Shown piece by piece: positions 23,685 through 36,444 of a DNA stretch of 64,000 nt. The DNA comes from an uncultured Acidobacteriia bacterium (lineage in GTDB: Bacteria > Acidobacteriota > Terriglobia > Bryobacterales > Bryobacteraceae). Under the pieces are notes generated by a model. It searched no databases and was not told the origin of the DNA. It saw only the letters and a program-made list of their open reading frames with translations. Position 1 is the first letter of the stretch. Each line of letters begins with the position of its first letter. A program made the position numbers and the translations under genes. Where the stretch lies: NCBI GenBank assembly GCA_903828455.1, contig CAIKMJ010000026.1, forward strand, positions 62,001-126,000, read 5' to 3'.

Positions 23685-26232
<2,548 letters not shown>

Positions 26233-26238
26233 CCCGCC

Positions 26239-26262
26239 CCGGACGCCGCCCAGGACGCCGCC
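26239..26262 (+). repeat. 2 x 12-bp tandem repeat forming the gpmI leader
   Basis: CCGGACGCCGCC and CAGGACGCCGCC abut and end at the gpmI ATG, filling nearly the whole 30-bp gap after eno. The second copy supplies AGGA 7 nt before the ATG, so the duplication appears to have created the ribosome-binding site. Confidence 0.7.
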
Positions 26263-27801
26263 ATGTCACGCAATAAACCGCTCATCCTCACGATTCTGGA
26301 CGGCTGGGGCTTTTCCCCTGTCGTCCAGGGCAACGCCATCGCGCAGGCACGCAAGCCGACTTACGACATGCTGCTGCGCGAATTCCCCAACACGCTGGTG
26401 AATACTTCCGGGCCCGCCGTGGGGCTGCCCGTGGGGCAGATGGGCAACAGCGAAGTCGGCCATCTGAACATCGGCGCGGGCCGCGTTGTCCATATGGACG
26501 TGACGCGCATCGACAATATGATCGCGTCGGGCGAGTTTTTCGATCAGCCGCTGCTGGTGGAAACGATGCGCCATGCGCGCGCCGGACACCGGCTGCACAT
26601 CATGGGCCTGTGCAGCGACGGCGGCGTGCATTCGTCGCTGGAACATCTTTATGCGCTGCTGCGGATGGCGAAACAGCAGGGCGTGACCGACGTCTTCGTG
26701 CACTGCTTCATGGACGGGCGCGATACGCCGCCCGAGAGCGGCATCGGCTTTATCGGCGCCATCGAAAAGAAGATGCGCGAGATCGGCACGGGGCGCATCG
26801 CAACGGTAGCGGGGCGCTACTACGCGATGGATCGCGACAAGCGGTGGGAGCGGGTGGAGCGGGCTTTCAACGCGATGGTGATCGGCAACGGGCTGAAGTC
26901 CACCGATCCCGCCGATGTGATGAAGCGGTCGTACGAAGCGGGCGTGACCGATGAATTCGTGGAACCGGTCACGATTGTGGATGCGCGCAACGTGCCCGTC
27001 GGGCTGATTCGCGATGACGACGCGTGCATCTTCTTCAACTATCGCGCCGACCGCGGCCGCGAGATGACCGAAGCGCTCACCAGCGCGACGCTCGAGCAGC
27101 CGTCCCGTTCGGCTGTGCCGAAGAACCTGAAGTTCGCCACCATGACGATGTACGATAAGTCGCTCAACGTGCCTTACGTGCTGACGCGCGAGCCGCTCGA
27201 CAACATCCTCGGCAACGTTTTCGCGCAGATCGGCTGGAAGAACCTGCGTTGCGCGGAGACGGAAAAATACGCGCACGTGACGTACTTCTTCAATGGCGGC
27301 CTCGAGAAGCCCTTCGCCGGAGAAGAGCGCGAACTGGTGGCGTCGCCCAAGGTCGCAACCTACGATCTGAAGCCGGAGATGAGCGCGGAAGGGATCACGG
27401 AAGTGATTCTGGACGCAATGGGACGCAAGGATTTCGACGTCATCATCATGAACTTCGCCAACGCGGACATGGTGGGGCACTCGGGTAAGCTGGAACCCAC
27501 GGTGCGCGCGGTGGAGTATGTGGATTCCTGCCTGGGACGCATCTACCAGCGGCTCAAGGAAAAGAACGGGCGCTGGATTATCACGGCCGATCATGGCAAT
27601 GCCGAGATGATGATCGATCCGGTGACCGGCGGGCCGCACACGTATCACACGACCAATCCGGTGCCGCTGATTCTGGTGGATGATTCGGGCGAGAAACTGC
27701 GGCAGGGCGGGGCACTGCAGGACATCGCACCCACGATTCTCGGAGTGCTGGGCGAGAAGCAGCCCAAAGAAATGACCGGCCGCGATCTGCGCATTCTGTA
27801 A
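26263..27801 (+). CDS. gpmI: 2,3-bisphosphoglycerate-independent phosphoglycerate mutase
   Basis: This manganese enzyme interconverts 3- and 2-phosphoglycerate. The 512 residues of the alkaline-phosphatase superfamily include 'ILDGWGFSP', the phosphorylated Ser in '[14 protein letters not shown]', '[12 protein letters not shown]', '[15 protein letters not shown]' and the metal ligands '[12 protein letters not shown]' and '[10 protein letters not shown]'. Length is normal. It follows eno in the same operon, so consecutive steps of lower glycolysis are made together. Confidence 0.97.
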
Positions 27802-27937
27802 ACGCAGCGCCGACCGGCCGTACAACTTAGCCATTCGTTGCCGCCTGCGCCGACGGTCACGCCTGAAGACCGGCGAGGATCGATGCACGCCGTTCCGGGC
27901 TGCGGCAAGCCGGCGCGCCCGCTGCCATGCGCCAGTT

Positions 27938-27978
27938 GTCACTCAAATGGGTGACGAACCTTTTGTCAGTTCACAAAA
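27938..27978. terminator. Hairpins between convergent gpmI and VOC genes
   Basis: The 200-bp gap contains a hairpin, GTCACTC-AAAT-GGGTGAC (27938-27955, one G-T pair), followed on the plus strand by GAACCTTTT. A second AT-rich inverted repeat, TTTTGT/ACAAAA, is at 27961-27978. Together they could end both convergent transcripts. The rest of the gap shows nothing recognisable. Confidence 0.4.
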
Positions 27979-28001
27979 ACCAAGCGCGCTGAGGAACCGC
28001 T

Positions 28002-28817
28002 CTACTTCTCCGGCGTCAGGTTTTCCGTCACTTCGATATACGTCCCCCACGGGTCGGTGAAAAATGCCACGCGGGTCTTCGTGTTCGGCACCTGGCGCGG
28101 CGCGGCGTCGAATTTCAGGCCGGCCGCTTCGAGACGCTTGCTGAACGCATCCAGACTGGTCACGTCGAAGCCGACGTGATCGAGCGAGCGCCCCTTCGTG
28201 CCCTCGGCCGCCGTATCCCGCGCGGTGTAAGACCACGTGATCTCGCCCGGCATGAAGTTGCAGTCGACCCAGCCCGGAGTCGAGATGCGGGGCCGCTGGC
28301 CCGGCGCAAAGCCGAAGACCTTCTGGTACCACGCCTGCGCTTGTTGAATCGTTGCGGCCGGCGCTGAAAGATGCACGTGATCCATGCGCACCGGGACCGT
28401 GAGTTTGGGATCGCCGAAGAATTCGGTACGCACGCCGTCCGGCGCGGTGAAGTAACCCTGCATCGGGTTGCTCATCTGCTCCACCTTCACGCCGGCGGCC
28501 TTCCATTTGGCCAGCATGGCGGGAAGATCGCGGAACGAAAGGCCGAAGTGATCCACGATGGAACCGGCGGGCGGCGCGGTCGGGTCACCCTGCCGCAGCA
28601 TAATGTACGCTCCGGGAAATTCGATCAGCGACAGCGGTCCGTTCTTCACCACCTTGCCGCCGGCCATCTCGACCCAGAACTTCTCCTGCACCGCCACATC
28701 TTTCACCACCAGATGAATGTGGCCGAGCCGGACGCCGGTGTCGTTCGGCGGCGCGAGTTGTCCGAACAGGCAGGCGGCGCTCAGCGCAGCCAGAACGGGA
28801 ATCGAAAAAGCCTTCAT
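28002..28817 (-). CDS. Exported VOC (glyoxalase/dioxygenase fold) family protein
   Basis: The 271-residue protein has two VOC repeats: 'LGHIHLVVKDVAVQEKFWVE' and 'MDHVHLSAPAATIQQAQAWY', each with the paired beta-alpha-beta-beta-beta layout and later 'FFTDPWGTYIEVTEN' with a metal-ligand Glu. His in 'HIHL' and 'HVHL' are further candidate metal ligands. A signal peptide ('LAALSAACLFG') implies export, which is unusual because most VOC enzymes are cytoplasmic, though exported forms are frequent in Solibacter-type genomes. The reaction cannot be assigned. It appears to be a single gene. Confidence 0.85.
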   Translation of the reverse strand: MKAFSIPVLAALSAACLFGQLAPPNDTGVRLGHIHLVVKDVAVQEKFWVEMAGGKVVKNGPLSLIEFPGAYIMLRQGDPTAPPAGSIVDHFGLSFRDLPAMLAKWKAAGVKVEQMSNPMQGYFTAPDGVRTEFFGDPKLTVPVRMDHVHLSAPAATIQQAQAWYQKVFGFAPGQRPRISTPGWVDCNFMPGEITWSYTARDTAAEGTKGRSLDHVGFDVTSLDAFSKRLEAAGLKFDAAPRQVPNTKTRVAFFTDPWGTYIEVTENLTPEK

Positions 28818-28871
28818 GGATGGCTACTTTAGCAGAAGGAATGCGGCCGAAACCCGCCCCCAAACGCAACA

Positions 28872-28892
28872 GCGGCCGGATAAACCGGCCGC
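28872..28892. repeat. Perfect 8-bp inverted repeat upstream of the VOC gene
   Basis: GCGGCCGG-ATAAA-CCGGCCGC forms a strong hairpin between the end of the Cys/HTH gene and the start of the VOC gene. There is no T-run, so it could be a terminator without a U-tract or an operator. Confidence 0.55.
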
Positions 28893-28924
28893 CGCGCGTC
28901 TCTCCACCTGGATTCTGTCTGAGT

Positions 28925-29515
28925 TCAGGCCGCCTTTCGGATCGGCGGCCTGAGTTTGTGCCGGCCGACCGGCATCGGCATCGCCAGCACGTTCCGCGCC
29001 TCCAGGGAAAAGTCTTTCCTCACCGAACCGCCGAAGTATTCGTCCAGCGGGAACAGTGCGTACGGTTCCAGTTCGCGGAATACGCGGCCCAGTTTCTGCT
29101 GGATCCGGTAGATCGAGTGGAAAAATGTGCCGCGGTCGATCTTCAGGCGGCGGCAGCACAGTTTCCAGTCGGCTCCCAGCAGAAAATGGAAACGGAAGAG
29201 CTGGTACTCCACATCATCCAGATATCGCCTGCTGACCAGGCAGAAATCGGCGATGTACTCCTCATCCCGCCGGCCCCAGACCTGCCGCCGCTCCGTCGCG
29301 CCAATGATCTGAATTCGCGCCTGGGTCATATGTTTTTCTTTTTCGATGCAATGTCGAAAGCGGTTATAGCAGGCCCGGAAAATGCCCCGCAGGACGCAGT
29401 TACAGGGCGTGGGCTCCTCTTTCTTCATGTAATTCCGCAATCCTAAACCCTGGCATTGCGTGCAGGACTCTTTCGCCAGCGCGATGGTGTCCGAGCGGCT
29501 CCATTCAGATTTCAC
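28925..29515 (-). CDS. Cys-cluster plus helix-turn-helix protein, unknown function
   Basis: The protein has 196 residues and I cannot name its family. The N-terminus has Cys at 18, 21, 38, 40, 49 and 56 ('CTQCQGLGLRN' and 'PCNCVLRGIFRAC'), suggesting a zinc knuckle. The C-terminal half ('DDVEYQLFRFHFLLGADWKL', then 'CCRRLKIDRGTFFHSIYRIQ') looks like a sigma region-4 or similar helix-turn-helix domain. Many similar proteins occur in Solibacter-type genomes, by memory and unverified. The gene is divergent from an XRE repressor across an AT-rich 219-bp region, which suggests shared control. It may be a DNA-binding regulator. Confidence 0.6.
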   Translation of the reverse strand: MKSEWSRSDTIALAKESCTQCQGLGLRNYMKKEEPTPCNCVLRGIFRACYNRFRHCIEKEKHMTQARIQIIGATERRQVWGRRDEEYIADFCLVSRRYLDDVEYQLFRFHFLLGADWKLCCRRLKIDRGTFFHSIYRIQQKLGRVFRELEPYALFPLDEYFGGSVRKDFSLEARNVLAMPMPVGRHKLRPPIRKAA

Positions 29516-29600
29516 CGATGTTTCCCCTTTCGTTCCAGGGAAACCGGAGTTAGTTTTCCCATGCAGGAAATGTCTCTTAATTTGGCTTTTGCTGCAATAA

Positions 29601-29629
29601 TTGATTGCTCATTTTGCTAAAGTTATATA
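29601..29629 (+). promoter_or_regulatory. Candidate promoter of the XRE repressor gene
   Basis: TTGATT and TATATA lie 17 bp apart on the plus strand. The leader would be about 100 nt and would contain the 17-bp palindrome just before the GTG. Confidence 0.45.
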
Positions 29630-29711
29630 TCTATAGTACTGATAGGACTAACTTTGTATGCCTAAATTGGGTGCCGAAATAATTGCTGCGGACATGTGAA
29701 TTTGCATGACC

Positions 29712-29728
29712 TATTTCCTGAGGAAATA
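29712..29728. promoter_or_regulatory. Perfect 17-bp palindrome over the ribosome-binding site
   Basis: TATTTCCT-G-AGGAAATA is a perfect inverted repeat. Its right arm contains the AGGA that serves as ribosome-binding site 10 nt before the GTG of the XRE gene. A dimeric repressor bound here, or a hairpin in the mRNA, would control that gene. Confidence 0.65.
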
Positions 29729-29734
29729 TAGCCG

Positions 29735-30466
29735 GTGAACTTCCGCGATCTCCAGGGCAGCCTCCTCGACGTGGTCCGCCGCAGGGTCCGCAACGGCCAG
29801 ATTACCGAGCGCGGGCTGGCCCGTCTCAGCGGCATGTCGCAGCCGCACATCCACAACGTGCTGAAGAACGCGCGCACGCTTTCCTTCGAATCGGCCGACC
29901 GGCTCATGGCCTGTCTCGATATCGGCATCGGCGAACTGCTGGGCGCCCCGCCGGCAACGGTTCACGCCGGACAAAATGCGCCGCCGGACGCGGACGAGGA
30001 ATTCACCTTCGCCGCCATTCCGCTGCTGCGCGCCCGCGTCGGTCCCGGAACGCAGCCGGTGTTCAATGCCTTCCGCGGGTACATTCCCGTGCAGCGTTCG
30101 CTGGCTTCGGAACTGGTGGACCCGGTGGCCGCCCGGCTCGCCCCGGACCTGGTGCTGCCACGCCCGTGCGCAGCCGGTGACATCGTTCTGCTCGATCAAA
30201 GTCCGGCGCGGCGCGCGCGCCCGCAGTTCGGTCTCTGGATCGTGGCCGACGATCCCTTCGGCATGCGCGTCCGTTACGCCCGCGTGGCGGGGACTCGCCT
30301 CAACGTCTTTCACGAGGCCAATTTCGGCGATCCGGCAACCTGGGATTCGCGCCCGCTGGGTGGACGGAATATTCTGGATATCGTAAGAGCACGCATTGTT
30401 TGGATTTCGCGCAAACTCGAAGACGAAGCCCCCCGACCGGCTGGACCGGCTGGTCCGGGCCATTGA
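29735..30466 (+). CDS. XRE-family HTH regulator with S24-like C-terminal domain
   Basis: The 243-residue protein begins at GTG. Residues 22-60 form a Cro/cI-type HTH ('ITERGLARLSGMSQPHIHNV'). The C-terminal half resembles the beta-fold of LexA/cI peptidase S24 domains ('GDIVLLDQSPARRARPQFGL'), but I find no convincing catalytic Ser (G-D-S-M) or Lys, so self-cleavage is doubtful and the domain may serve dimerisation or sensing. The palindrome over its own ribosome-binding site suggests autoregulation. The downstream unknown gene overlaps it by 71 bp. A cI-like switch without surrounding phage genes is notable. Confidence 0.75.
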   Translation: MNFRDLQGSLLDVVRRRVRNGQITERGLARLSGMSQPHIHNVLKNARTLSFESADRLMACLDIGIGELLGAPPATVHAGQNAPPDADEEFTFAAIPLLRARVGPGTQPVFNAFRGYIPVQRSLASELVDPVAARLAPDLVLPRPCAAGDIVLLDQSPARRARPQFGLWIVADDPFGMRVRYARVAGTRLNVFHEANFGDPATWDSRPLGGRNILDIVRARIVWISRKLEDEAPRPAGPAGPGH

Positions 30467-30983
30467 AGCGATTGGCGAGCGCGATCGCCGCAGCGTCGCC
30501 GAGGCCGCCGCGGTAGAGCGCCTGCGCGAGCAGGGAGCGCTGGCGCTGCACGGTATCTGCAGCCGGTTCGTCGGCAGCATCAACACGAGGCTTTCGACGC
30601 CGGAACTGATTCTGGATCCCTCCGAAATGGCCGGCAACGATTTCCGGCCGGGCCTGACCTGTTTCTTCCAGATCAACCTGCGCGGCCGGTTGCTGCAGTT
30701 TCAGTTCGCCTCCACCGAGGAACTCACCAGCCGGGACGATTTCCGCCGCCCGTACGTGTTGTCTGGTTCGCTGCGTTCATTCAATCAGGAAGCGCTCAGC
30801 CAGAGCTGCGTGGATGAACAGTTGCTCTTTTATTGCCCTGAGCCGGCCGAGGTGAACGGTGCCGGCGTCGCCGGACCCGACGGCGCGCGCAGCGCTGCCT
30901 GGTATTACTTCGACCCCCGCACCCATCGCAGCGGTCCGGTGGGCGAGGAGTATCTGGCGGAGACCCTCGAGCGCTTGTTGTAA
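30396..30983 (+). CDS. Conserved-looking protein of unknown function
   Basis: The protein has 195 residues from a TTG at 30396; no other ATG, GTG or TTG occurs in frame for the next 60 codons, so the 71-bp overlap with the XRE gene is forced. Features: a charged N-terminal helix ('LVRAIEAIGERDRRSVAEAA'), a central beta-rich part ('CFFQINLRGRLLQFQFASTE') and an acidic C-terminal helix. There is no signal peptide, membrane segment or known motif. Overlap with the regulator gene implies co-translation and perhaps a physical partner. I do not recognise the family. It converges on the ABC exporter gene. Confidence 0.6.
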   Translation: MFGFRANSKTKPPDRLDRLVRAIEAIGERDRRSVAEAAAVERLREQGALALHGICSRFVGSINTRLSTPELILDPSEMAGNDFRPGLTCFFQINLRGRLLQFQFASTEELTSRDDFRRPYVLSGSLRSFNQEALSQSCVDEQLLFYCPEPAEVNGAGVAGPDGARSAAWYYFDPRTHRSGPVGEEYLAETLERLL

Positions 30984-31006
30984 ATTCGAGCGCAGGCTTG
31001 CCACCG

Positions 31007-32764
31007 CTATGCCCCGGCCAGCGCGCGCCCTTCGCCCACCTGCTGACGCCACATGGCGTAGTAGAGCCCCTTCTTCTCCAGCAGTTCGTCGTGGCCGCCA
31101 AATTCGACGATCCGCCCCCGCTCCAGCACGTAGATGCGATCGGCATGCATGACGGTGGAAAGCCGGTGGGCAATCAGGATGGTGATGGCCTCGCGGGCGG
31201 CGCCCAGACTGCGGATCGTATGGCTGATCTCTTCTTCCGTGAGTGAATCGAGCGCCGACGTCGCCTCGTCGAAGACCAGCAACTGCGGCTTCCGCAGCAG
31301 CGCGCGGGCGATGGACAGCCGCTGCTTCTCGCCGCCCGATACCTTCACGCCGCCTTCGCCGATCATCGTGTCGAGGCCCTTTTCCGCGCGCGCGAGGAGG
31401 CTGTCGACCGCCGAGGCGTGCAGCACCGCCATACACTCGGCGTCGCTGGCGCCGGGCCTGACGAACAGCAGATTTTCGCGGATCGATCCGGAGAACAGCT
31501 GCGCGTCCTGCGTCACGAGCCCGATGCGCTCGCGCAGGTCTTCGATCTCGATCTGATCCTCCGGCGTCCCGTTGTAGAGAATGTGGCCGGACTTCGGCCG
31601 GTAGAGCCCGACCAGCAGCTTCACCAGCGTCGTCTTGCCCGAGCCCGACGGCCCCACGAACGCCACCGTTTCGCCGCGCCGCACGCGGAACGAAACATCG
31701 CGCAGTGCCGGCTGCGTTGCCGAGGCATGCTGGAATTCCACGTTTTCGAACAGCATCTCCCGCAAGTCGCCGAGCGCAACGGGGTGCTCGGGTCTTGGCT
31801 CCGGTTCGAGCGCCAGAATGTTTTCGAAGATCTGCAGCGAGGCCTCGGTTTCCCGGTACGTCAGCACCACGTTGCCCAGTTCCTGCAGCGGCCCGAAGAT
31901 GAAGAACGAATAGATGTAGATGGAGAAGAACTGGCCGACCGTGATCCGCTGCGTGAAGATCAGGTACATCAGCAGGAAGAGGATCGAGGTGCGCAGCAGA
32001 TTGACGAAAGTCCCCTGCACGAAGCTGAGGCTGCGCAGGTACTTCACCTTGCTCAGTTCGAGCTTCAAAATGCGCGCGGTGGTGGAGTTCAGCCGGTCGA
32101 TCTCCTGCTGGGCAAGGCCGAGGCTCTTCACCAGTTCGATGTTGCGCAGCGATTCGGTCGTCGACCCGGCCAGCGCGGTAGTCTCGCGCACGATCTTCTT
32201 CTGGACTTCCTTGATCTTGCCGCTGAGCAGATGGCTGAGGCCGCCGAGAAGCGGGATCGTGGCCAGATAAGCCGGTCCGATCGACCAGTGCACGCGGCTG
32301 GCATAAACCATCACGAAGATGACGCCGATCAGCGTCGTGAACAGCAGATTGATCGCCACCGTGATGAGCTTTTCCACGTCCGTCCGCACCTTCTGCAGCT
32401 TGCCCAGCGTTTCGCCGCTGCGCTGATCTTCGAACAAGCCGTATGGCAGTTCGAGCGAATGGCGCACGCCGTCGGCATAAATTCGCGCGCCCACGCGCTG
32501 CGTGATCACGTTGACGAAATAGTCCTGGAAATTTTTTGCCACGCGCGAAACGAAGGCGACGCCCATTGCCGCGCCGAGCAGCAGGGAGACGCCGCGGATG
32601 AACTGCCCCACGGTGTACTCGTGAAAACGCGTGGCATAGGAATCGATGACGTGTCGGAAGATCAGCGGGTCGAGCAGAGAGAAGATCTGGTTGATGGCCG
32701 CCAGCACCAGCGCGGCTGCAACCAGCCGCCAGTAGTCGCGCAGATATCGGTAGAGGGTCGCCAT
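31007..32764 (-). CDS. ABC exporter half-transporter (permease fused to ATPase)
   Basis: The frame is open to 32884, but the ATG at 32764 starts a typical type I exporter of 585 residues. About six membrane helices ('LVAAALVLAAINQIFSLLDP' onward) are followed by a nucleotide-binding domain with Walker A 'GPSGSGKTTL', signature 'VSGGEKQRLSIARALL', Walker B 'LLVFDEATSALD' and H-loop 'IAHRLST'. It should act as a homodimer, or heterodimer with an unlinked partner, exporting lipid, peptide or drug. No substrate gene is adjacent. It is divergent from the Met-rich protein gene; two 21-bp repeats lie in the shared upstream region. Confidence 0.93.
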   Translation of the reverse strand: MATLYRYLRDYWRLVAAALVLAAINQIFSLLDPLIFRHVIDSYATRFHEYTVGQFIRGVSLLLGAAMGVAFVSRVAKNFQDYFVNVITQRVGARIYADGVRHSLELPYGLFEDQRSGETLGKLQKVRTDVEKLITVAINLLFTTLIGVIFVMVYASRVHWSIGPAYLATIPLLGGLSHLLSGKIKEVQKKIVRETTALAGSTTESLRNIELVKSLGLAQQEIDRLNSTTARILKLELSKVKYLRSLSFVQGTFVNLLRTSILFLLMYLIFTQRITVGQFFSIYIYSFFIFGPLQELGNVVLTYRETEASLQIFENILALEPEPRPEHPVALGDLREMLFENVEFQHASATQPALRDVSFRVRRGETVAFVGPSGSGKTTLVKLLVGLYRPKSGHILYNGTPEDQIEIEDLRERIGLVTQDAQLFSGSIRENLLFVRPGASDAECMAVLHASAVDSLLARAEKGLDTMIGEGGVKVSGGEKQRLSIARALLRKPQLLVFDEATSALDSLTEEEISHTIRSLGAAREAITILIAHRLSTVMHADRIYVLERGRIVEFGGHDELLEKKGLYYAMWRQQVGEGRALAGA

Positions 32765-32832
32765 GAGTGTCTTGTTTAACGTTACGGCATGGCCGGCGCG
32801 GAACCGCCGGCGCGGCGCCGCGGCAGGAAGCA

Positions 32833-32874
32833 ACGCCGAACCGCGCCACAGAAACGCCGAACCGGGCCACGGAA
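32833..32874. repeat. 2 x 21-bp direct repeat in a divergent promoter region
   Basis: Two abutting 21-bp copies with the core ACGCCGAACC differ at only two positions. They sit in the 159-bp gap between the ABC exporter and the Met-rich protein gene, just upstream of the latter's candidate -35, so they may be activator sites. Confidence 0.7.
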
Positions 32875-32877
32875 AGG

Positions 32878-32906
32878 ATGACACCGGCGCCCGGTACGTT
32901 TACACT
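32878..32906 (+). promoter_or_regulatory. Candidate promoter of the Met-rich protein gene
   Basis: ATGACA and TACACT are 17 bp apart on the plus strand. AGGAG follows 8 nt before the ATG at 32924, so the leader would be very short. Confidence 0.5.
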
Positions 32907-32923
32907 GGCCGCAGGAGCATTCC

Positions 32924-33841
32924 ATGCGAGCCGTCACGTTACTAACCCTTGCGGCAATCGCCGCCGTCAGCGCCCACGCGGATTTCAGTTACACCAGCAC
33001 AATGAAAGTGACCGGCGGCACCATGGCCGCTTACGCCGGCACCGCCGCCAACCGCACCACGAAGTACTCGCTCAAGGGGCAGAAGATGAAGCTCGACATG
33101 GGCGACATCGCCATGATCATGGACTTCGATGCGCAAACCATCACGACGGTCAACAACACCGCGAAGACCGTGTCGGTGAAGAGCTTCAGCGATGCCGCCG
33201 CCGGCGCCTCCGGCATGGACGTCAAAATCGACGCGAAGGAAACCGGCCAGAAGAAGACCATCAACGGCTTCAGCGCCGGCGAACTGGTGATGACGATGGA
33301 CGTCGACCAGCCCGGCCGCGCCGGCGGCCCGGCGATGAAGATGCAGATGGAGATGGATTCCTGGATCTCGTCCGATCCTCCCGGCACCGGCGAACTCCGC
33401 GCCTTTTACACGAAGAACGCTTCGCGTTTTCCCTACTCGGCGATGTCCGGCGGCGGCGCCAATCAAAGCATGCAGTCCGCCATGGCGGAAATGCAGAAGA
33501 AGCTTGCGGCGATGAACGGCGTCGCGGTGGAGATGATCATTCGCGTGAAGACGCCTTCGGGCGCGGCCGGTGCGCCGGGAATGCCGCAGATGAGCGAGTC
33601 GCAGATGGCTCAGCTCGCCCAGGCCCGCGCCAAACTCGAAGAGATGGCAAAAAGCGGCGGACCCGCGGCAGCCATGGCGCAGCAGCAGCTGGCGCGCATG
33701 CCCGGCGGCGCTCCGGCGGCAAACAGCAACACGCCCCCCGGAGTCATGATGGAAATGACGGTGGACTCCACCGGCTTCTCCACGGCCAGCGTTCCGGACT
33801 CGGCCTTCGACATCCCGGCCGATTACAAAAAAGTCAACTGA
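32924..33841 (+). CDS. Exported Met-rich protein of unknown function
   Basis: The 305-residue protein has a signal peptide ('LLTLAAIAAVSAHA') and an AGGAG ribosome-binding site. The body is strikingly rich in Met ('MGDIAMIMDFDAQT', 'PAMKMQMEMDSWIS', 'MPQMSESQMAQL'). It alternates short strands typical of DUF4412-like or lipoprotein-carrier-like beta sheets, then has a helical Gln/Ala insert near residues 220-265. Met-rich exported proteins can bind Cu(I) or resist oxidation, but there is no defined site here. I cannot assign a family firmly. It lies 72 bp before the polysaccharide operon. Confidence 0.65.
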   Translation: MRAVTLLTLAAIAAVSAHADFSYTSTMKVTGGTMAAYAGTAANRTTKYSLKGQKMKLDMGDIAMIMDFDAQTITTVNNTAKTVSVKSFSDAAAGASGMDVKIDAKETGQKKTINGFSAGELVMTMDVDQPGRAGGPAMKMQMEMDSWISSDPPGTGELRAFYTKNASRFPYSAMSGGGANQSMQSAMAEMQKKLAAMNGVAVEMIIRVKTPSGAAGAPGMPQMSESQMAQLAQARAKLEEMAKSGGPAAAMAQQQLARMPGGAPAANSNTPPGVMMEMTVDSTGFSTASVPDSAFDIPADYKKVN

Positions 33842-33913
33842 AGCGCAGGCGCGCGTCGCCTGTCCAGGCCGGTCGTGAGATACTGTGCCAGGCGCGCATG
33901 CGCGGCTCCTGCG

Positions 33914-35212
33914 ATGAAATTCGGCACTCTCGTTCCCCGCATTCTGATCGCCCTCGCCGCCGTCTGCGCGCTGTGGACTTCCACCGCGCAGGAGCGCGCG
34001 GATTACTACGCCACCAAACGCACGGCAGAGGGCTGGCTGCAGGCAAGCCGGCTGCAGCCGGGCAACGCCGAATATGTCTCGGCGCGCGCCGTCTTTCGTG
34101 CTGTCACCGGCGACCCTTCGCCTGCCGTCGATCACGACCTGCAAACCGCGGTGTCGATGAATCCGGCCGATGCCGAAGCGCTCATGGCGCTCGGTGTGCG
34201 CGCCGAACGGCGCGGCGACGATGCCGCGGCCCGCACGTATCTGGAACGCGCCGCTTCCGTCAGTCTGCTTTTCAAGCCCGCCTGGACGCTGGCGAACTTT
34301 TACTTCCGCACCGGCAATGATGCCGGCTTCTGGCCCATGATCCGGCGCTGCCTTTCGATGATCGAGTCGCATAACCTTGAACCGAGCACGTTCGATCCGG
34401 GCCCGGTCTTCGATCTTGCCTGGCATCAGGATCCGAACGCGGCCCGTATCCGCGCGCTGGTGCCGCGCCGCGCGGCCACGCTGATCCCGTACCTGCGGTA
34501 TCTGCAGTCGACCGATCGCATCGGTCCCGCGATGGAGGTCTGGCCCGACGTTCTCGCCGTGGCCGATCCCTCGATTTCGTCCGACAACGAAGTGCTGCTG
34601 AGTTTTGGCGAATATCTCGTCTCCACAAAATTCGCCGCCGCCCAGGCGGCCTCCGTCTGGAACGACCTCGTGAAGCGCGGTTTCGTTCAGTCCGCCCCCG
34701 TCGACATCGCCGCGGGCGATCCCGTGGAGAATCCCGAATTCATCTACCCGCCGATTTCGCATTTCCTCTCCTGGTATCCGGCGCGCATGGAAGGCGTCTT
34801 CGTTACTTCGTCGCCCCATGCGCTGCGCTTCGAATTTACCGGCAACGAGCCCGACACCTTCGACCTGCTCACCAAAGCGGTTCCGCTCGGTGCGGCCCGC
34901 AACTGGCGGCTGAGCTGGGAGGCCGATGTCTCGCGTCTCGAAACCACCCGCGGCGCTCCTCTCGGACTGGCCTTTCGGGTCGACGATCTGGCTGCGCTGG
35001 CTTCGAACGCCGCGACGCAGGGCGGCCCCGTCCTCTGCCCGTCGTTCGGTTCGGCGGCGAAAGGATCGTGCGCCATCGCGGTGGCGCCATCCACCAGGTT
35101 TCTGCGGTTGACGATCCACTACCAGCGGCCGGTGGGCGCCACGCGCATCAAGGGCGTCTTCGTCCTTTCCGCTGCGCATTTGGAAGCCGTAGCCGCGGGA
35201 AGAGTGCCATGA
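33914..35212 (+). CDS. Exported tetratricopeptide-like protein of the polysaccharide operon
   Basis: The ATG at 33914 begins a signal or anchor segment ('ILIALAAVCALWTSTAQ'); the frame is open from 33875. The 432 residues contain TPR-like helices ('ALMALGVRAERRGDDAAARTYLE') in the first half and a C-terminal beta-rich domain ('WRLSWEADVSRLETTRGAPL') of unknown type. It overlaps the O-antigen ligase start as ATGA. Proteins in this position in similar clusters assist polymer assembly, but this is inference from context. Confidence 0.65.
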   Translation: MKFGTLVPRILIALAAVCALWTSTAQERADYYATKRTAEGWLQASRLQPGNAEYVSARAVFRAVTGDPSPAVDHDLQTAVSMNPADAEALMALGVRAERRGDDAAARTYLERAASVSLLFKPAWTLANFYFRTGNDAGFWPMIRRCLSMIESHNLEPSTFDPGPVFDLAWHQDPNAARIRALVPRRAATLIPYLRYLQSTDRIGPAMEVWPDVLAVADPSISSDNEVLLSFGEYLVSTKFAAAQAASVWNDLVKRGFVQSAPVDIAAGDPVENPEFIYPPISHFLSWYPARMEGVFVTSSPHALRFEFTGNEPDTFDLLTKAVPLGAARNWRLSWEADVSRLETTRGAPLGLAFRVDDLAALASNAATQGGPVLCPSFGSAAKGSCAIAVAPSTRFLRLTIHYQRPVGATRIKGVFVLSAAHLEAVAAGRVP

Positions 35213-36444
35213 CCGATTCCCGTCCCATGTCCGAACACCGGGCGCGCAGTTTCGCCATCGCTCTCGCCGGCGTGCTGATTCTTTCCGTCGCCGTCGGTTT
35301 CCCTCCCGCGTACTGGCCTTCGGCCGTCGCCATCGATGCGATCGCTCTGCTCGGCCTCGTCTGGGCGCTGCGTGCCGACTCCTTCGCGCTGGATGCCTCC
35401 TCGCTGCCCGCCTGCGTTGCCATGGCGCTGATCGCCGTCTGGGGCCCGGCGCAACTGCTCTTCGGTTCGAGCGTGGCGCCGTGGCGCACCGCCCGCGCCT
35501 CCATCGACTGGGTCGCTTACGGGCTCGCGTTCGTCACCGCCTCGCAGATTCTGGCCTCCGAGCGCGCGCGCCATCTTTTTCTCAACATCCTGCTCTGGGC
35601 TGCAACCGTGTTTGCGGTCCTCGCGATGCTGCAGATGTCGACGTCGCCGCCTCTCGCCTACGGGATTTTCCCGGCCGACGACAGTCTCGTCGGCACCTTT
35701 CTCTATAAAAATCAGTTCGCCGCCATGATGGAACTGGCCGCGCCCATCGCCCTGTGGCGCGCGCTGCGCGGGCGCGAATCTCCCGTCGCCGGCTTGATGT
35801 TCTTCGCCGTCCTTTTTGCGGCAACAGTTGCGAGCACCTCGCGGGCCGGCGTCATTCTCCTCGCCGCCGAATTCATCTGCGCGCTGGCGATTGCCCTCTA
35901 CCGCCGCCGCATTCCTCTGCGCACGGCTGCCGTGCTGGCCGGCGGCCTGGTCGCGCTCGCCGCCTTGGCCTCGGTTGTCGCGGGCCCGCAACGAATCATC
36001 GAACATTTTCACGAGCAGCACCCGTACAGCATCCGCTACCAGTTACTGGGATCGACGCTCCGGATGATCGCCGAACGGCCCTGGTTCGGCGCCGGCATGG
36101 GCACCTGGCGCCTGCTTTATCCCCGCTTCGCCACCTTCGACATCGCGCTGGTCGCCAACGAGGCCCACTCCGACTGGGCCCAGTGGGCCGCCGAGGGAGG
36201 CATTCCCTTCGTCTGCTTGATGCTCGTGCTCGTCGTTTCCACGCTGCGGGCCGGCTTTTCCACCACCTGGGGGCTGGGGGTGCTGATGGTGATGATTCAC
36301 AGCCTCATCGACTATCCGACGCGCGCCGCCGCGCCCGGCCTGCTTTGGTTTTCTCTCGCCGGCGCCCTCCTCCATGCCCGCGAACCTTCGCGCTCCGGCC
36401 CCCGCCGCGGACGATCCGGCGGCCCGTCCCGGGGGCTCCCCTGA
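35209..36444 (+). CDS. O-antigen ligase/polymerase family membrane protein
   Basis: The 411-residue protein starts at the ATGA overlap. It has about ten membrane helices and the long periplasmic loop of the Wzy_C/WaaL family. The motif 'NEAHSDWAQWAAEGGIPF' near residue 315 corresponds to the conserved H-(N/S)-x-x-x-Q-x-x-x-E-x-G of O-antigen ligases and polymerases. It joins or polymerises undecaprenyl-linked glycans on the outer face of the inner membrane. Whether it acts as ligase (WaaL) or polymerase (Wzy) cannot be told from sequence. It is followed by export genes. Confidence 0.87.
   Translation: MTDSRPMSEHRARSFAIALAGVLILSVAVGFPPAYWPSAVAIDAIALLGLVWALRADSFALDASSLPACVAMALIAVWGPAQLLFGSSVAPWRTARASIDWVAYGLAFVTASQILASERARHLFLNILLWAATVFAVLAMLQMSTSPPLAYGIFPADDSLVGTFLYKNQFAAMMELAAPIALWRALRGRESPVAGLMFFAVLFAATVASTSRAGVILLAAEFICALAIALYRRRIPLRTAAVLAGGLVALAALASVVAGPQRIIEHFHEQHPYSIRYQLLGSTLRMIAERPWFGAGMGTWRLLYPRFATFDIALVANEAHSDWAQWAAEGGIPFVCLMLVLVVSTLRAGFSTTWGLGVLMVMIHSLIDYPTRAAAPGLLWFSLAGALLHAREPSRSGPRRGRSGGPSRGLP

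Follow-up and report, generated by a model that had tools for sequence, protein, structure and literature searches.

We examined a three-gene locus within a 64,000-nucleotide stretch of DNA (the window) from an uncultured bacterium of the acidobacterial family Bryobacteraceae (assembly GCA_903828455.1, contig CAIKMJ010000026.1, positions 62,001 to 126,000). The initial annotation had described this locus as a phage-like regulatory cassette without a phage, and all three open reading frames (ORFs) lie where it had placed them. Gene 1 (28925..29515, minus strand) has a GTG start and encodes 196 amino acids. Its protein consists of a four-cysteine N-terminal part, with a CxxCxGxG ... CxC motif at residues 18-40 (29396..29464, minus strand) defined by an alignment of 103 proteins, and a predicted sigma-70 region-4-like helix-turn-helix (HTH) domain at residues 72-159 (29039..29302, minus strand) that emerged from AlphaFold2 and VIA-align. 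Gene 2 (29735..30466, plus strand) also has a GTG start and encodes a probable autorepressor of 243 amino acids, whose Cro/CI-type (XRE) HTH at residues 23-73 (29801..29953, plus strand) includes a conserved GxSQPHxHNVLKGxR stretch. Gene 3 (30396..30983, plus strand) starts with TTG, encodes 195 amino acids without a family match and overlaps gene 2 by 71 bp. Genes 1 and 2 diverge from a spacer (29516..29734) that had been singled out as the only clearly AT-rich stretch, and the composition check agreed: with a GC content of 0.393 against a mean of 0.639 it is the lowest-GC 219-bp stretch of the window, 33 of 63,781 windows of this size are equally low, and all those within 0.02 GC of it begin in a single stretch, 29483-29554. 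The spacer contains the palindrome TATTTC-CTGAG-GAAATA (29712..29728, plus strand; the extended consensus starts with CC at 29710), the probable operator of gene 2.

We favour, with moderate confidence, the reading that this is an old, mainly vertically inherited transcription-control locus composed of an autoregulated XRE repressor and a divergently encoded gene 1 factor that is shared with phages. The gene 2 repressor would bind the palindrome beside its own start codon, to which strong sequence evidence links it, and would thereby keep expression of its own operon, which in the window's genus includes gene 3, at a fixed level. Gene 1 would act on promoters through its region-4-like domain. 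Phage copies of gene 1 located beside packaging genes would most likely help to switch on late genes, and hosts and phages would have exchanged the gene repeatedly. At the sequence level this reading draws on the co-occurrence of the genes, a signal of vertical inheritance, an operator tied to gene 2, the location of the phage copies and the mixing of host and phage sequences.

To describe the distribution of the locus we used 150 genomes of the window's family, Bryobacteraceae, that are at least 90% complete and cover 64 genera. Gene 1 was present in 148 of these genomes and in 64/64 genera, with a single match in 131 of the 148 positive genomes (counted by hand from the table); gene 2 was present in 124 genomes and 59 genera. 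In a set of 61 genomes, the window's own and 60 relatives, 40 carried gene 1, 39 carried gene 2 and 21 carried gene 3. Beyond the family, 5 of 24 relatives from the same order or class had gene 1. Across the phylum, a draw of 396 genomes, in which the family's share was not counted, yielded three matches (the own genome and two more), all within the family. The titles of the chromosomal records read Bryobacterales, Bryobacteraceae, Solibacter, Sulfopaludibacter, Terriglobia, Acidobacteriaceae or plain Acidobacteria.

We then compared 80 of the 189 chromosomal loci found, many of them cut by contig ends and a few with weak or distant neighbour matches. Gene 2 lies upstream of and divergent from gene 1 in 66 of these 80 loci, which corresponds to 66 of the 75 with enough upstream DNA. 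The recurrent order is proS - glyA - glycosyltransferase - (gene 3) - gene 2 / gene 1 - tadA; within the fetched DNA a glycosyltransferase gene was seen in 54 loci, glyA in 44, tadA in 27, proS in 21 and a sigma-70 gene in 8. The co-occurrence that the initial annotation had proposed to check is found for genes 1 and 2, mostly in one recurring neighbourhood, and the outcome it had named as a refutation, separate occurrence among random neighbours, was not seen for these two. Within the window's genus the cassette's neighbours do differ between genomes, and nine of the 75 loci lack gene 2. Eight gene 1 loci have neither gene 2 nor the operator (L156, L159, L162, L165, L168, L173, L185 and L186), and L158 also lacks gene 2. 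A glycosyltransferase gene lies upstream in all of those eight, and tadA lies downstream in L162, L165, L168, L173, L185 and L186. In six other loci (L140, L144, L147, L151, L154 and L181) a sigma-70 family gene is located directly beyond gene 2; the one in L147 has regions 2, 3 and 4 by Pfam.

Distances between gene 1 proteins track those of the neighbouring genes. The Mantel correlation was 0.76 for glyA (n=41), 0.61 for proS (n=18), 0.63 for tadA (n=27) and 0.47 for the glycosyltransferase (n=49), and in each case 0 of 999 permutations reached as high a value. This makes it most likely that the locus belongs to the inherited chromosome and has been passed on mainly vertically. A prophage remnant or a mobile cassette was considered for the family's locus and rejected on this vertical signal together with the recurring neighbours; the differing neighbours within the window's genus count against that rejection.

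An alignment of 29 spacers revealed one common palindrome, TATTTC-N5-GAAATA, directly upstream of gene 2. A search over half-sites and gaps recovered it in 16 of 17 genus spacers, while three shuffled sets reached 3, in a control that was sparser than the real search (400 half-sites per gap, three shuffles). A second palindrome that had been seen by eye in genus spacers was absent from the results of this search. For counting operators we used the 75 chromosomal loci with at least 450 bp of upstream DNA. With up to two mismatches the palindrome was present in 57 of the 66 loci with gene 2 (29 of them exact) and in 0 of the 9 without it; 29 permuted palindromes that served as control were found in a mean of 2.3 and a maximum of 9 of the 66 loci. 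Positions T3 and A15 are invariant in the 65 best sites (up to three mismatches). As its presence is tied to that of gene 2, the palindrome is most likely gene 2's own operator, and autoregulation of gene 2 is the plainest reading of it. The exact palindrome occurs in 24 of the 61 genomes and, by coordinates, at the cassette in 22 of these 24; the window's genome has a single exact copy, located at the cassette. One-mismatch sites number 4-23 per genus genome versus 0-7 for a reversed control pattern.

We also weighed whether the palindrome might act as an RNA hairpin in place of a DNA operator. One inner pair is G-U in 13 of the 65 sites, but the outer pairs are often mismatched (in 41 and 18 of the 65 sites), which makes a hairpin the less likely of the two. 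In one relative (G005) the palindrome recurs with one fixed centre near the ends of contigs C10, C11, C23, C37 and C39 and also on C29; the recurrence near contig ends suggests that it additionally sits in a repeated element in that genome. Superinfection immunity through an operator shared with phages was considered and discarded, with no site of up to one mismatch in 80 viral loci (1.13 Mb). Among the viral matches listed, one phage contig carrying gene 1 (L343, the contig of L195) holds the exact palindrome elsewhere; by reading, this match overlaps a ribosome-binding-site-like stretch and an ATG, and we therefore treated it as chance.

Gene 2 is an XRE (Cro/CI-type) HTH protein. At an E-value of 0.01, Pfam detected HTH_3 in 14, HTH_31 in 12 and HTH_26 in 10 of 22 members, and the window's protein falls slightly below the HTH_26 cut-off (21.6 versus 22 bits). 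In the recognition stretch S35 and Q36 are invariant over 47 proteins and H38 and H40 nearly so. From the HTH and the adjoining palindrome we infer a repressor. The initial annotation had called the protein a cI-like regulator with a degenerate S24 domain. The cI/S24 label is weak and an S24 domain is not supported: Pfam S24 matched one of the 22 proteins (E 0.0095), hhalign against E. coli LexA as a single-sequence template aligned only 8 columns (E 0.22), and 31 of 66 gene 2 frames are shorter than 150 amino acids and lack the C-terminal half (HTH-only forms).

The 71-bp overlap of genes 2 and 3 had been described as forced, and it is. An in-frame stop ends 9 nucleotides before TTG 30396, and this TTG is the sole start codon between the upstream in-frame stop and 150 bases downstream. 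Genes 2 and 3 occur together in 21 other loci. With start codons chosen automatically, nine of these show an overlap of precisely 71 bp and eight one of 19-83 bp; three loci have no overlap, and in one (L124) the gene 3 frame is broken and the value meaningless. The conservation of the overlap suggests that gene 3 is translationally coupled to gene 2. Gene 3 was present in 18 of 19 genus genomes and in 3 of the 42 others of the 61-genome set, and in 21 of the 80 chromosomal loci, being patchy outside the window's genus. Two relatives have gene 3 homologues on contigs other than the cassette contig (G019:C58 and G057:C36, the latter being one of the three genomes outside the genus), which shows that gene 3 does not depend on the presence of gene 2 beside it. 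A structure prediction, which had been proposed for this 195-residue protein, gave a confident model (mean pLDDT 88.1) with a long N-terminal helix and beta-strands, but no convincing relative: the weak fold matches included a Mediator chain (7uio_An, Z 6.8, rmsd 3.5 over 99 residues) and ExsC (3kxy_A, Z 4.7, rmsd 3.6 over 91). A secretion-chaperone-like topology was considered and is not supported. Pfam gave no match for the window's gene 3 protein, and single members of the alignment gave weak unrelated matches (best E 0.018).

Neither gene 1 nor gene 3 of the window matched any family in Pfam, PHROGs or NCBIfam at an E-value of 0.001. For gene 1 the best PHROGs match over 30 members was to a family of unknown function (E 0.011). 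Cysteines C18, C21, C38 and C40 are invariant across 103 aligned host and phage proteins, and the four-cysteine part probably binds metal. The AlphaFold2 model had a mean pLDDT of 88.6 and a pTM of 0.79. When residues 72-159 were compared with solved structures by VIA-align, most of the 50 rows were sigma factors (top Z 8.7). Sigma-70 region 4 was matched in 3hug_G (Z 8.2, rmsd 2.2 over 74 residues), 3vfz_A (Z 8.1, rmsd 1.4 over 62) and 6dxo_A (Z 7.6, rmsd 1.1 over 59), and this predicts a region-4-like domain in gene 1. Pfam sigma region 2, which recognizes the -10 element, was not detected in any of the 103 members at an E-value of 0.01; the N-terminal part is the four-cysteine segment instead. 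Since gene 1 appears to carry a region-4-like domain, it is most likely a promoter-level transcription factor, which would contact polymerase or promoter DNA.

In a viral library, Foldseek found an uncharacterised phage protein, A0A6J5LCE3, that gene 1 matches well (E 2.2e-11, TMq 0.69), followed by weak fold matches of which many are labelled sigma or DUF1492. A scan of viral contigs returned 93 relatives of gene 1. Searching 50,697 annotated phage records by tblastn with the window's gene 1 protein and one phage copy gave no match, and for genes 2 and 3 peptide-pattern scans of viral sequences came up empty. We examined 80 of the 93 viral loci and counted terminase- and portal-like genes on the same strand. 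The distance from the gene 1 relative to such a gene is at most 1.5 kb in 43 loci, at most 3 kb in 54 loci and at most 10 kb in 62 loci, and none of the 80 chromosomal loci has one. In 20 viral loci the gene 1 relative is flanked by terminase upstream and portal downstream, and in 24 a same-strand sigma-70 gene lies within 10 kb. One genome (G004) contains both forms: besides the cassette on the chromosome it has another gene 1 copy, far away, that follows a phage-type terminase gene at a distance of about 0.5 kb. In the uncultured phages of L267 and similar viral loci the portal (~720 amino acids, weakly SU10-like) and the terminase (~580 amino acids) are poorly covered by Pfam and PHROGs.

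This location bears on the explanation that the locus is an ordinary one-component regulator of the lineage and that its phage copies are incidental cargo without a role in late transcription. The near-universal, vertically inherited host gene would fit, as would the one exact operator in the own genome. That the phage copies adjoin packaging genes and retain the four cysteines argues against mere cargo, and we regard this explanation as quite unlikely. An HTH protein beside the large terminase in many phages could also be a small-terminase-like packaging protein, in which case the host copy would be a repurposed binder of packaging sites. In a check of 10 phage proteins from 6 loci, L193 has a separate small terminase (phrog_57, E 2.2e-23) and L246 a weak small-terminase match upstream (E 0.0043). 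The separate small terminase in L193 and the fact that the best solved-structure matches are sigma region-4 domains speak against a packaging protein, which we hold to be very improbable.

A tree of 159 gene 1 proteins (unrooted, with a midpoint root for drawing only, and with a bootstrap that had not settled) has 14 changes between host and phage labels, and its starred branches force at least 5. All host copies lie in one part of 115 rows, and the 44 rows outside it are all viral. Phage copies are nested in several host subclades, and one strongly supported group (100/99) joins 7 host rows without gene 2 to 5 phage rows. Short branches predominate among the hosts and long ones among the phages. 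A single host clade that excludes the phage copies was rejected (AU p 1.6e-81; 37 host and 18 phage rows, quick method). In this 55-row subset, hand-picked from the larger tree, the label changes 13 times versus 15.3 when labels are shuffled, a sign of nearly complete mixing of hosts and phages there. The nesting in several host subclades implies that exchange was repeated and in part perhaps ran from host to phage; gene 1 thus seems to have been exchanged in a manner matched to host lineage. The direction of transfer is not readable from an unrooted count of label changes.

These results also speak to the proposal that the locus is a domesticated phage switch, in which one ancient prophage left behind a late regulator (gene 1) and a CI repressor (gene 2) that now serve the host, for example in the control of a gene transfer agent or a tail-like particle. 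The position of the phage relatives within packaging modules, the confinement of host copies to one part of the (midpoint-rooted) tree and the Cro/CI-type HTH of gene 2 would be expected from such an origin. Against it stand the rejection of a single host clade and the lack of viral matches to genes 2 and 3 in the peptide-pattern scans. Nor did conserved particle genes of the types tried come to light: the own genome matched neither an HK97 capsid nor the phage terminase used as query (other types of either were not tried), while 7 of 41 relatives matched the capsid and 1 of 41 the terminase; tail-like particles were not searched. Control of a gene transfer agent is not supported, and we consider a domesticated switch unlikely. 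The domesticated switch that the initial annotation had raised as a possibility is partly supported, in that gene 1 has a genuine connection to phages (relatives on 93 viral contigs; 54 of 80 loci at the packaging module), but a single transfer from phage to host is not established. With one operator found, beside gene 2 only, a bistable switch is not supported.

The coexistence of host and phage copies in G004 and the longer phage branches would also suit a host gene 1 that acts as an anti-phage decoy, similar enough to the phage late regulator to occupy its promoters or partners and thereby spoil late transcription. However, the three window proteins had no match to a defence model (PADLOC) at an E-value of 0.1, and near-universal, mostly single-copy presence is unusual for defence genes. 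We regard the decoy as very improbable.

Several observations weigh against our preferred reading of a vertically inherited, autoregulated transcription-control locus. Z-scores of about 8 for gene 1 are middling by VIA-align's own note, and the region-4 assignment consequently rests on the matched rows being mostly of one domain kind. Sigma region 4 is a small helical fold, and Foldseek E-values for gene 1 against the Protein Data Bank (PDB) were all above 0.3. Pfam sigma region-4 models match just 2 of the 103 members, and no PDB chain matched the gene 1 profile by sequence at an E-value of 1. As to the operator, 9 of the 66 gene 2 loci have no site within two mismatches, and in the own genome one-mismatch sites number 5 versus 2 for the reversed control pattern. 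A regulon was not found for either protein, one-mismatch sites elsewhere not having been followed up, and in a consensus scan neither gene 1 nor gene 2 showed a clear promoter. The palindrome lies ~200 bp from gene 1, which is kept in 9 of the 75 loci without gene 2 and without the operator. Finally, the cassette of the window's genome is located outside the usual glyA/glycosyltransferase neighbourhood.

In that genome the cassette is flanked by a glyoxalase gene and an ABC-transporter gene. Pfam assigned the eight neighbouring ORFs (23685-36444) to nucleotidyltransferase, enolase, iPGM, glyoxalase, ABC transporter and O-antigen ligase families, with two lacking a match. The statement that no phage genes are nearby thus holds for these eight ORFs, among which no phage family was detected, the remainder of the window being unscreened for phage genes. 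Window ORFs of at least 100 amino acids that start between 12 and 50 kb, outside the cassette, had no match in the 80 loci at an E-value of 1e-15, with the exception of one ABC-transporter ORF that matched in one locus at 27.5% identity. Rfam gave no match in 28000-32000. The cumulative GC skew of the window climbs to a peak at ~22-28 kb and then declines, a course expected near a replication terminus; the cassette is situated at the apex.

Searching by lineage names, we found no published account of this locus, subscription literature lying mostly outside that search. Literature on the lineage includes a paper on Solibacter (PMC3174227) and one that reports proviruses specific to Bryobacterales (PMC11924767), the available part of which contains none of the terms 'transcriptional regulator', 'sigma' or 'repressor'. 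Taken together, the initial observation was real and applies more widely than first thought, and it is partly supported in its interpretation; a better description is that of a host regulator locus found throughout the family, the key protein of which phages also possess. A soil-bacterial family thereby gains a near-universal regulator, for which a likely operator and naturally occurring phage variants are at hand. This raises two testable questions: which purpose the regulator serves in the host, and whether a phage requires a copy matched to its host. A caution follows as well, in that a gene pair that looks 'phage-like' but lacks a phage may turn out to be a core gene locus.

Compared with known systems, gene 2 resembles XRE autorepressors of the HTH_3/HTH_26/HTH_31 type by its HTH, found in 10 to 14 of 22 members, and by the palindrome at its own start. 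Unlike in Cro-CI switches, no Cro partner and no shared multi-site operator were found. The long forms of gene 2 share with the S24 repressors CI and LexA an N-terminal HTH followed by a C-terminal domain, but S24 itself is unsupported and the short forms have no C-terminal domain.

The phage copies of gene 1 recall the Ltr families and RinA, described in the accessible part of PMC13123087 as small regulators that are encoded by the packaging genes and activate the late operon. This likeness is one of gene position (54 of 80 viral loci have a terminase or portal gene no more than 3 kb away) and description, not of sequence comparison, and on the Ltr side DUF1492 and sigma-region-4 viral proteins appear only among the weak fold matches of gene 1. 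Gene 1 differs from both in its invariant four-cysteine part and its near-universal host form, and from RinA, described upstream of terS, in lying between terminase and portal in 20 of 80 viral loci.

A further parallel is offered by the WhiB-like (Wbl) proteins of Actinobacteria, which the accessible part of PMC6282962 presents as small transcription factors that are confined to one lineage, have four cysteines without variation and are tied to sigma region 4. Gene 1 is likewise lineage-restricted and small, with four invariant cysteines and a predicted link to sigma region 4, and we claim no homology. Actinophages also carry Wbl copies. The cysteine spacing differs, and sigma region 4 is a binding partner of the Wbl proteins, whereas in gene 1 a fold of this kind seems to be part of the protein itself. 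We tentatively raise the possibility that gene 1 is a clade-specific accessory factor of transcription initiation, near-universal in one family and combining a metal-binding four-cysteine part with a sigma region-4-like domain, Wbl-like but arisen independently in Acidobacteriota, and that phages may repeatedly take up the version of their own host lineage for late transcription.

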